IMG/VR virus record: IMGVR_UViG_3300024506_000022
Span: 1-22,935 of that record
Strand: one strand, 5' to 3'
DNA: 22,935 nucleotides
Origin: a virus
Of the stretch, positions 3,642 to 7,455 are shown piece by piece. The position numbers and the translations under genes were made by a program. The notes beneath the pieces are model-generated. The model made no database searches. It was not told the origin of the DNA and saw only the letters and a list, made by a program, of their open reading frames with translations. The first letter of the stretch is position 1, and the number at the start of each line of letters is the position of its first letter.

Positions 3642-5230
3642 TGCTGCGTGACTACCAACAGCGCGCCATCGATCAGCTTTACGCATGGTTCGCGGCTGGC
3701 AAGCAGGGGAACCCATGCCTGGTGCTGCCAACTGGATCAGGCAAGAGCCACATCGTGGCTGCGCTCTGTAAAGACGCGATCCAGAACTGGCCTGAGACGC
3801 GGATCTTGATGCTAACGCACGTTAAGGAGCTGATCGAGCAGAACGCGGAGAAGATGCGCGAACACTGGCGCGGCGCACCGATGGGCATCTATTCGGCTGG
3901 CATGGGCCGCAAGCAGCTGGGTGAGCCGATCACATTCGCTGGCATTCAATCGATCAGGAAGCACGCCAGCCGCGTCGGCCATATCGATCTGTGCATCATC
4001 GACGAGTGCCACCTGGTCAGCCATAAAGACGAAGGTGGCTATCGGACGTTCCTGGCCGAGTTAAAGGCGATCAATCCTGCGATGCGTGTGGTTGGCCTGA
4101 CTGCCACGCCTTATCGCCTGGGGCATGGCCTGATCACGGACAAGCCTGCGCTGTTTGATGATCTAATTGAGCCAGTCACGATAGAGGAGCTGGTCCATAA
4201 AGGCTATCTCTCGACGCTGCGAAGCAAAGTCACCAAGGCCGCGCTCGATACGTCTGGCGTGCATAAGCGTGGCGGTGAGTTCATCGAGAGCGAGTTGCAG
4301 GCTGCGGTCGATACCGACGAGAACAATCTGCGGGTGGTGCGTGAAGTCATGGCATTGGCTAGCGATCGCAAGGCTTGGCTGTTCTTTTGCGCTGGTGTTC
4401 ACCATGCCGAAGCTGTGGCCGAGGTGCTGCAATCGCATGGTGTTCCAGCCGCCTGCGTGACTGGATCAACGCCAAAGGCCGAGCGGGAACGATTGCTGTC
4501 TGCCTTTAAATCTGGACAATTAAAGGCGCTGACCAACGCCAATGTGCTGACCACTGGCTTCGACTATCCTGACATCGATCTGATCGCCATGCTGCGGCCA
4601 ACAATGAGCGCCAGCTTGTATGTGCAGATGGCGGGACGCGGTATGCGAGTGAAGAGCCATACCGATCATTGCTTAGTGTTGGATTTTGCTGGCGTGGTGC
4701 AGATGCACGGCCCTATCACTGCTGTGGAGCCGCCCAAGCGCAAGGGTGAGGGTAATGGCGAGGCTCCGGTCAAGGTCTGCGACGAGTGCAACGAGCTGGT
4801 GCATATCAGCGCCAAGGAGTGTCCGACTTGCGGTGCAGCCTTCCCTGAGCCTGAGAAGAAGAAGCTGGAGCTGCGCCAAGATGACATCATGGGGCTGGAG
4901 GCCGAGGAGATGGCCCTGACAGGCTGGAACTGGCGCAAGCACACCAGTAAGGCCAGCGGCAAGGATATGCTGGCCGTGTCCTATTATGGTGGCCTGAGCG
5001 ATCCCAGCGTGGTCGAGTATTTCCCAGTGACGCATGAAGGCTATGCCGGCCAGAAGGCGCTGAACACCGTGGCGACGATTGCGGATCGTGCTGGCGTTGG
5101 CTTTGCTGGTGCGGATGCGCTTGAGGAATGGGCTGATCGGCTAAATGATGGCGATTGCCCCAGCTTGATCGAGTATCGCCGTGACGGGAAATATTATCGA
5201 GTCGTGAGGAGGAAATGGACCAATGCCTAG
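3641..5230 (+). CDS. SF2 DEAD/DEAH-box helicase with zinc ribbon
   Basis: A 529-residue helicase. Motif I is PTGSGKS (30-36), motif II is DECH (121-124), motif III is TAT (154-156), and motif VI is QMAGRGMR in the second RecA-like domain. Cys380, Cys383, Cys394 and Cys397 (CDEC...CPTC) form a zinc ribbon after the helicase core. The last ~120 residues (GWNWRKH, GKDMLAVSYYGG, HEGYAGQKA) form the C-terminal domain found on phage ATP-dependent helicases of the COG1061 type, which probably contacts DNA. It is expected to unwind or remodel DNA for recombination or replication. The start overlaps the nuclease stop by one base, and its end overlaps the next gene by 8 bases, so nuclease and helicase are probably made in matched amounts. 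Confidence 0.9.
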   Translation: MLRDYQQRAIDQLYAWFAAGKQGNPCLVLPTGSGKSHIVAALCKDAIQNWPETRILMLTHVKELIEQNAEKMREHWRGAPMGIYSAGMGRKQLGEPITFAGIQSIRKHASRVGHIDLCIIDECHLVSHKDEGGYRTFLAELKAINPAMRVVGLTATPYRLGHGLITDKPALFDDLIEPVTIEELVHKGYLSTLRSKVTKAALDTSGVHKRGGEFIESELQAAVDTDENNLRVVREVMALASDRKAWLFFCAGVHHAEAVAEVLQSHGVPAACVTGSTPKAERERLLSAFKSGQLKALTNANVLTTGFDYPDIDLIAMLRPTMSASLYVQMAGRGMRVKSHTDHCLVLDFAGVVQMHGPITAVEPPKRKGEGNGEAPVKVCDECNELVHISAKECPTCGAAFPEPEKKKLELRQDDIMGLEAEEMALTGWNWRKHTSKASGKDMLAVSYYGGLSDPSVVEYFPVTHEGYAGQKALNTVATIADRAGVGFAGADALEEWADRLNDGDCPSLIEYRRDGKYYRVVRRKWTNA

Positions 5231-5417
5231 ACCGCCAAAGCCAGATTTTTTGGTGCAATATGAGGAATGGACCAAAGCTGGCCCACCACCCTGCTGCCAC
5301 ACCTGCGATCACTATAGCGGCGATGGGCAGTGCTTCATCTTCAAGATGGAGCCGCCGATCGAGTTCGTGAACAGCTATGGTCAATGTGAGAAGTGGGAAC
5401 AGATGATTCCATTCTAG
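5223..5417 (+). CDS. Small Cys-rich metal-binding protein
   Basis: A 64-residue protein overlapping the helicase end by 8 bases, with Shine-Dalgarno GAGGAGG a few bases upstream inside the helicase gene. Cys25-x-x-Cys28, Cys37 and Cys55 suggest one zinc or iron-sulphur site; Cys24 is an extra cysteine. The order Cys-x-Thr-Cys-x-His, Cys, Pro-x-Glu-Phe, Cys matches residues 232-265 of the nuclease two genes upstream, as if the same module exists both free and fused. The function is unknown. A structural or regulatory partner of the nuclease-helicase pair is inference. Confidence 0.8.
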   Translation: MPRPPKPDFLVQYEEWTKAGPPPCCHTCDHYSGDGQCFIFKMEPPIEFVNSYGQCEKWEQMIPF

Positions 5418-5423
5418 CCACCA

Positions 5424-5443
5424 TTTTGTTATACCAAACAAAA
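5424..5443 (+). repeat. AT-rich inverted repeat in front of the HNH gene
   Basis: TTTTGTT (5424-5430) and AACAAAA (5437-5443) are exact reverse complements with a 6-base loop, ending directly before the Shine-Dalgarno GGAGG (5444-5448) of the HNH gene. Within it, TG-T-TATACC resembles an extended -10 element with no good -35. It could tune HNH translation or mark its 5' boundary. An all-AT 7-bp stem with one GC pair is weak. Confidence 0.35.
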
Positions 5444-5452
5444 GGAGGCATT

Positions 5453-6001
5453 ATGGATTTAGCTTATTTGAATGAGGCTTTGGATTATAATCCTGAAAAT
5501 GGCTCATTTGTATGGAAACATCGCCCAAGGCATCACTTCGATTCTGATCGTGCATGGTGGCAATGGAATGGCAGGTATGCCGGAACAAAAGCCGGAACAA
5601 CATACAAGCCAAATCCTAAATTTGATTACACCAGAACGAAAATCATCATTAATAAAAAAATGCACTTTGCCCATCGGATTGCATGGCGAATGGCATTTGG
5701 AGAAATTCCACAAGGCCATTCAATCGATCATATCGATGGCGATGCGACTAACAATTCCATCATCAACCTTAGGCTGGTGAAGCATTCGGAAAATCACAAA
5801 AACAGAGGTTTTCCAAAAAATAATACCAGCGGCGCGGTTGGCGTTAAAAAGGTAAAAAACAGATGGCGTGCCAGAATCAAGATTGATCAAAAGGAGATAA
5901 GCCTTGGCTCATATGAAACATTTGAGGAAGCTAAACTTGCAAGAGAACGCGCTGCCAAAGAATATGGTTTCACCGAAAGGCATATTAAAATCGGAGCATG
6001 A
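5453..6001 (+). CDS. HNH endonuclease with AP2 DNA-binding domain (homing-type)
   Basis: A 182-residue protein. ATG 5453 with AAAGGAGG at 5441-5448 is chosen; the frame extends upstream to 5393, but that overlaps the previous gene without a ribosome site. Residues 74-118 carry the HNH nuclease: HRIAWRMAFGEIPQGHSIDH, then DGDATNN and NLRLVKHSENHKNR, with His93, Asn101/Asn105 and the terminal Asn/His as metal-site candidates. Residues 125-172 form an AP2 fold (TSGAVGVKK, WRARI, ISLGSYETFEEA) used for DNA recognition in phage homing enzymes. The gene is far more AT-rich than its neighbours: 33 percent GC counted over 5461-5520 against 57 percent over 5101-5160. It is most likely a selfish free-standing endonuclease acquired by transfer. 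Its 3' end overlaps the VRR-NUC gene. Confidence 0.92.
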   Translation: MDLAYLNEALDYNPENGSFVWKHRPRHHFDSDRAWWQWNGRYAGTKAGTTYKPNPKFDYTRTKIIINKKMHFAHRIAWRMAFGEIPQGHSIDHIDGDATNNSIINLRLVKHSENHKNRGFPKNNTSGAVGVKKVKNRWRARIKIDQKEISLGSYETFEEAKLARERAAKEYGFTERHIKIGA

Positions 6002-6711: not shown

Positions 6712-6725
6712 TTTTTCCCCTTTAC
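6712..6725 (+). repeat. 14-base motif, copy 2 of 2
   Basis: TTTTTCCCCTTTAC, identical to 316-329. Here it follows TATACT, so a protein bound to it would cover the expected transcription start. The GTAAAGG partner that makes copy 1 a dyad is absent nearby. Confidence 0.55.
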
Positions 6726-6736
6726 ATGGCGGGGAG

Positions 6737-6759
6737 GATGTGGGAAGAATCACCACATC
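6737..6759 (+). repeat. Inverted repeat downstream of motif copy 2
   Basis: GATGTGG (6737-6743) and CCACATC (6753-6759) are exact reverse complements around a 9-base centre. It lies 25 bases before ATG 6785. It could be an operator dyad or an mRNA hairpin in the leader of the 56-residue protein. Confidence 0.45.
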
Positions 6760-6784: not shown

Positions 6785-6955
6785 ATGCAACGCATCGCAG
6801 ACTACACCGCACCGACCAAGCGTTACGATGGAGTCCTGACCATCAGTATCCTTGAGGACGGTCGCCGCCATTTCATCGCTGAACACAAGGTTGACGGCAA
6901 GCGCGCCGCTCGCGCTGTAGCTGCACAATACAACGCGAAGCCTTGGAACTTCTGA
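6785..6955 (+). CDS. Small hypothetical protein, 56 residues
   Basis: The frame is open from 6626, but ATG 6785 follows CCGGAG at about 9 bases and starts the plausible protein MQRIADYTAPTKRYDGVLTI. It is basic, with one beta-hairpin-like segment and a terminal helix KRAARAVAAQYNAKPWNF. It is unrecognised. It leads directly into the wHTH-RHH gene (1 base between stop and start), so it may be co-regulated with it. Confidence 0.6.
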   Translation: MQRIADYTAPTKRYDGVLTISILEDGRRHFIAEHKVDGKRAARAVAAQYNAKPWNF

Positions 6956-6956
6956 G

Positions 6957-7352
6957 ATGGATGAGATCATCTATCCTTCATGGCGCGATGTGCTGGTGAC
7001 GGTCTATCACCATCCTAGCAGCACCTTCGAGATCGCTGCACGCCTTGGCCGCAGCCAAACCTCGGTGAGCGCCAACCTCAAGAAGCTGGCCGATCGCGGA
7101 TACGTCATCCGCCAGCGCCGGGGAATGTATCACCACAACAGCCTGACGCCCAAGGGCATCGAGGCCATCAAGCAAGAAATAAAGGAAGAACCAATGCCAC
7201 CCAAAGATTACATGACCGTCCGCATCGAGCCGGAACTGCGTGCCCGAATCGAAAAGATCGCCATGCAGGAACATCGATCGCTTTCTGCCCAGGCGCGCTT
7301 GATGCTGCACCGCGCAGTTCAGAAGGAGGAAGAAAATGCAGGACGTAATTGA
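6957..7352 (+). CDS. Winged-HTH plus ribbon-helix-helix fusion regulator
   Basis: A 131-residue protein with two DNA-binding units. Residues 8-70 look like a MarR/ArsR-type winged helix: TFEIAARLGRSQTSVSANLK is the HTH, then DRGYVIRQRRGMYHHNSL the wing, and LTPKGIEAI the closing helix. Residues 84-118 match Arc/MetJ-type ribbon-helix-helix proteins: MTVRIEPELRARIEKIA (strand and helix A), then RSLSAQARLML (helix B). A second start is credible: ATG 7194 (Met80) is preceded by AAAGGAAG at 7181-7188, so the RHH part may also be made alone. It probably regulates phage genes; the target is unknown. The stop lies inside the following tiny membrane-protein gene. Confidence 0.8.
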   Translation: MDEIIYPSWRDVLVTVYHHPSSTFEIAARLGRSQTSVSANLKKLADRGYVIRQRRGMYHHNSLTPKGIEAIKQEIKEEPMPPKDYMTVRIEPELRARIEKIAMQEHRSLSAQARLMLHRAVQKEEENAGRN

Positions 7353-7455
7353 ACTCTGGCGCACCATGCCGCGCAGCGAGAAGATCGGCGCGATCGTGTT
7401 TCCGCCAGTCTTTCTGGGTATTTTCTGGGCAATATGGGTGATGACACCAGCCTGA
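7336..7455 (+). CDS. Tiny single-span membrane protein, 39 residues
   Basis: ATG 7336 lies inside the end of the wHTH-RHH gene with a strong AAGGAGGA at 7323-7330, 5 bases upstream. The product starts MQDVIELWRTMPRSEKIG and continues with about 18 hydrophobic residues (AIVFPPVFLGIFWAIWVM), a clear transmembrane helix with the charged part N-terminal. The function is unknown. Superinfection exclusion or accessory lysis are possibilities without direct support. Confidence 0.7.
   Translation: MQDVIELWRTMPRSEKIGAIVFPPVFLGIFWAIWVMTPA

Follow-up and report, generated by a model that had tools for sequence, protein, structure and literature searches.

The locus and its two domains

The window, by which we mean the whole 22,935-nucleotide stretch of an IMG/VR virus record that was analysed, carries a phage operon in which a single uninterrupted frame of 131 codons joins two DNA-binding domains (Table 1). 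Genes for a Sak4-like annealing protein, a Cas4-type exonuclease, a helicase, an HNH endonuclease and a resolvase-like nuclease lie to the left of the operon, and a dCTP deaminase gene lies to its right. The HNH endonuclease gene (5453-6001) lies where GC is low (0.466 for 5001-6000) and is missing between the same neighbours in two relatives (L004 and L005), and is likely a mobile insertion.

Table 1. Coordinates of the features in and around the fused regulator gene.
Feature	Position	Strand	Basis
Putative sigma-70 promoter of the operon, TTTACA-18-AAGAAT	6721..6750	+	Consensus scan, 9/12
Candidate operator, palindrome TGTGGG-N7-ACCACA over the -10 region	6739..6757	+	Unique exact match; relatives
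Upstream small gene, 56 aa, ending ..NAKPWNF; its stop codon is the insertion junction	6785..6955	+	In all close relatives
239-bp cassette, present in three alleles, absent in others; ends ambiguous by 1 base	6956..7194	+	Alignment of fused with free alleles
Fusion ORF, wHTH + RHH, 131 aa	6957..7352	+	ORF call; homologous fusions in L001, L002 and L003
MarR-type winged-HTH domain and E/K-rich linker, residues 1-79	6957..7193	+	Pfam MarR_2 above cut-off; AF2 model
Internal Shine-Dalgarno-like AAAGGAAG	7181..7188	+	Sequence; SD energy -4.9 kcal/mol
Internal ATG (Met80); its homologue is the true start codon of the free RHH gene	7194..7196	+	Relatives
Arc-like RHH domain, possible free 52-aa product	7194..7352	+	phrog_3431, E=2e-7; free orthologues; low omega

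A sequence-only reading of this DNA had proposed that the chain combines a winged HTH (wHTH) with a ribbon-helix-helix (RHH) domain, and profile searches recovered both, the former through Pfam and the latter through PHROG. Residues 1-79 match Pfam MarR_2 with E=1.3e-9 (38.5 bits; cut-off 27) and also MarR (27.3 bits against a cut-off of 24.6). The AlphaFold model of the fusion contains a canonical wHTH, with helices at residues 9-18, 23-30, 34-46 and 65-77 and strands at 50-55 and 58-63, and this core also matches MarR/SlyA structures. It differs from MarR-family regulators in that only eight residues precede the first helix of the model and a linker and the RHH follow the last one, the RHH occupying the place of the C-terminal part. 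As the N- and C-terminal dimerisation helices of MarR are thus missing, the protein is better described as carrying a MarR-like wHTH than as a full MarR protein. A structure search of the PDB and viral models matched the wHTH alone and recognised no equivalent fusion architecture; full-length matches had high rmsd and coverage limited to the wHTH. One further candidate relative of the wHTH (L044) was rejected as a chance match over 17 residues within another protein.

Residues 80-131 match the PHROG ‘Arc-like repressor’ profile, as do all ten homologues, while Pfam RHH models match the same residues with scores below their cut-offs. The fusion model has two helices where an RHH should have them, at 92-104 and 109-130 behind a low-confidence linker (residues 77-82), but no strand was called, and the 52-residue RHH modelled alone formed one long helix. 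The RHH fold assignment therefore rests on sequence profiles and not on the model. With its small size, the expected strand-helix-helix sequence pattern, a position in the phage early region and likely autoregulation, this part resembles Arc/CopG-type phage repressors, from which it differs in standing behind a wHTH in three alleles while being free in ten other relatives.

Purifying selection acts on both domains, with omega values of 0.03-0.23 for the wHTH and of 0.01-0.08 for the RHH in pairs that include a fused allele (excluding L003 paired with L004 or L005, which have few synonymous changes), indicating that the fusion is maintained as a working protein. Selection is relaxed in the linker between them. 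The chain is a new combination of known parts and not a new class of system; no description of a single-chain phage regulator with wHTH and RHH was found in a non-exhaustive literature search.

Fused and free alleles of the regulator gene

Whether the domain pair also exists as separate genes was addressed by searching viral contigs. These yielded three distinct fused alleles, namely that of the window (identical to L001, and to L006 where covered), L002 and L003, and ten contigs in which the RHH gene is free (L004, L005, L010-L016 and L040; L010 and L011 share their junction sequence). The ten free relatives are 65-96% identical, and no wHTH was found elsewhere in their contigs, which are partial. 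Neither phage records nor 85,000 prokaryote genomes yielded homologues of the fusion, although the pattern searches of the genomes reach close relatives only.

In all ten contigs the first residue of the free RHH protein is the homologue of Met80, and the protein opens with MPPKDYM or MPPTDYM, in agreement with the proposal that Met80 opens a self-contained RHH protein. In eight of them its first codon shares bases with the stop of the ‘..KPWNF’ gene upstream (TGATG or TAATG); the free gene of L016 has its own SD, and that of L040 lies apart from the upstream gene. As judged from these alignments, the placing of the domain boundary at codon 80 is beyond chance, since it coincides with the start of the free gene in ten relatives.

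When fused and free alleles were aligned, one clean difference separated them: 239 bases between TGA and TGCC, which encode the wHTH in the RHH frame without a stop. The TG of the former ATG survives the insertion, and codon 80 is therefore NTG irrespective of which base ends the insert; it reads ATG in the window and in L002 and GTG in L003. One phage operon can thus be compared with and without the inserted domain, in L003 and L004 between flanking alleles that are almost the same. Such a pair amounts to a natural before-and-after experiment, in which a regulator gains a second DNA-binding domain and the old gene is kept, and it also bears on whether an internal start could keep the old product alive.

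The start codon at the domain boundary

The ribosome site proposed for Met80, AAAGGAAG followed by a 5-base spacer, is indeed present in the window, and both other fused alleles retain an SD and a start at the same place (GAGGAA-ATG in one and GGAGGAA-GTG in the other), such that all three carry a ribosome-binding site and start codon at the domain boundary. Homologues lacking the site, which the sequence-only reading had named as evidence against its proposal, are thus not seen among the fused alleles. The SD energy in the window is reached by 11% of the 253 internal in-frame ATG/GTG codons of this phage. That of L002 is stronger (-5.8 kcal/mol, reached by 5% of such codons), and that of L003, where it is paired with GTG, is strongest (-9.3 kcal/mol, top 0.8%). 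At the fusion start the SD is -3.3 kcal/mol in all three alleles, weaker than the internal SD in each, and predicted RNA openness follows the same direction (0.80, 0.52 and 0.57 at the internal start versus 0.07, 0.04 and 0.35 at the fusion start). The fusion start at 6957 probably depends on being coupled to the stop upstream. A-rich stretches ahead of the start codon favour initiation in E. coli (PMC7043885), and AAATAAAGGAAGAACCA is A-rich.

Synonymous shuffling of the linker gave SDs of equal or greater strength in 0.84, 0.74 and 0.60 of draws for the three alleles, and selection for the internal site at the codon level is therefore not visible. The internal SD can be put down to the E/K-rich linker, and the retained start to where the insertion fell. 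The main competing explanation builds on exactly this, and holds that only the 131-residue protein is made, codon 80 being a relic of the former start and the SD-like run an incidental effect of coding for a Glu/Lys-rich linker. An SD no stronger than the linker peptide predicts, an NTG kept mechanically by the insertion, the replacement of ATG by GTG in L003, and equally strong SDs at about one in nine internal in-frame start codons of this phage would all be expected if this were so. Against it, the internal site exceeds the fusion start in both SD energy and openness in each of the three alleles, the GTG of L003 is joined with the strongest SD of all, and a free RHH, which every other relative has kept, may still be required. 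We consider production of the fusion alone a serious contender, albeit the less probable one, and put use of the internal start at 7194 at even chances or somewhat better.

Genes with two in-frame products are known elsewhere. The Tn5 transposase inhibitor, made in frame and shortened at its N-terminus, can enter mixed dimers and dampen the long form; it differs from the present case in deriving from a transposase and not from a repressor with two folds, and it has no homology to the wHTH-RHH chain. The principle is well documented in phage endolysins (PMC9430671), some of which use an in-frame internal start at a domain boundary to make a full-length and a C-terminal product, and mixed complexes of the two polypeptides have been demonstrated experimentally (PMC9430671, PMC12203907). 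The endolysins resemble our locus in having a single phage frame with an internal start at a domain boundary, whereas they are lytic enzymes and not a regulator, and the second product is in our case predicted only. In-frame double products from a phage regulator of wHTH-RHH architecture were not found in the literature searched.

Candidate operator, origin of the fusion and turnover of the operon

The putative promoter of the operon aligns with TTGACC-17-CATTAT and TTTACA-17-AATAAT of relatives. The palindrome over its -10 region occurs exactly once in the window, where 0.02 occurrences are expected, and similar sites in the rest of the window are no more frequent than chance predicts. Most relatives have a single copy of the palindrome at the locus, whether or not they carry the wHTH (its right half is missing in L005 and L016), a conservation that among close relatives is inseparable from that of the promoter region in general. 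Roughly one turn further upstream, most relatives also keep a TGNGG element. That the palindrome occurs at fused and at free loci is consistent with autorepression by the RHH they have in common, and such autorepression at this candidate site appears likely.

An alternative reading would make the RHH a dimerisation tail or antitoxin-like element that does not bind DNA, leaving regulation to the wHTH alone. It could draw on the FitA-like and ParD-like antitoxin RHH models among the weak Pfam matches and on the failure of the RHH fold to appear in the model of the isolated part, yet the best and universal profile matches are to Arc-like repressors, the RHH stands alone in most of the phages, with no wHTH found in their partial contigs, and no toxin-like partner was recognised adjacent to its gene. 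We regard this reading as unlikely, and favour a DNA-binding, autorepressing RHH.

As all the more distant relatives carry the free form, gain of the wHTH in the fused lineage is the simplest reading of the direction of change. The fused L003 and the free L004 have nearly the same RHH DNA (dS 0.03), suggesting that the cassette moves between phages, and their upstream genes differ at 2 of 140 positions. Their differences concentrate beside the insert (6 of 28 bp versus 7 of 296; Fisher p=3e-4, with the boundary set after inspection), a mosaic suggesting that recombination transferred the cassette. The converse history, in which the fusion came first and loss of the wHTH by deletion produced the free alleles, seems highly improbable: the sister RHH alleles of L003 and L004 do call for at least one loss or transfer, but L010-L016 and L040, all of them more distant, are free, each deletion would need to recreate the exact TGATG stop-start overlap, and the mosaic agrees with cassette transfer.

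In the insertion history that we favour, the ancestor would have carried a free, small Arc-like RHH as gene 2 or 3 of a promoter-proximal operon of the phage, with its translation coupled to that of the ‘..KPWNF’ gene. One lineage would then have acquired a 239-bp cassette for a MarR-type wHTH at the junction of the upstream stop with the RHH start, the cassette being open throughout and in the RHH frame. From the start at 6957, which is coupled to the upstream gene, the wHTH-RHH fusion would now be made, while the old start at 7194 would persist with its SD-like sequence and probably give some free RHH. Most likely, the fusion dimerises through its RHH, which also binds the palindrome on the promoter of its own operon as an autorepressor; the wHTH would contribute a second DNA contact or target. 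Taken as a whole, this account strikes us as reasonably probable. The sequence-only reading had speculated further on mixed dimers and a dose-sensing switch. Fusion and free RHH could in theory co-dimerise through the RHH, with the ratio of upstream-coupled to internal initiation setting operator occupancy, such that a single insertion created a dose-sensing autorepressor; we hold this extension to be speculative and unlikely.

The operon turns over quickly. L003, L004, L005, L012 and L013 each have a different extra small ORF before the ‘..KPWNF’ gene, directly behind the conserved promoter and leader, which makes this interval a hot spot of small-gene gain and loss. The wHTH is one more cassette of the operon, unusual for having landed in frame.

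Members of the ‘..KPWNF’ family share a strongly conserved C-terminus (..AAQYNAKPWNF) and also occur in otherwise different phages, beside the RHH gene in L040 and without a recognised RHH gene adjoining in L024-L026. At the other end of the fusion, a short gene (7336-7455) that encodes a probable membrane segment, MQDVIELWRTMPRSEKIGAIVFPPVFLGIFWAIWVMTPA, overlaps the 3′ end of the RHH frame and is kept in relatives.
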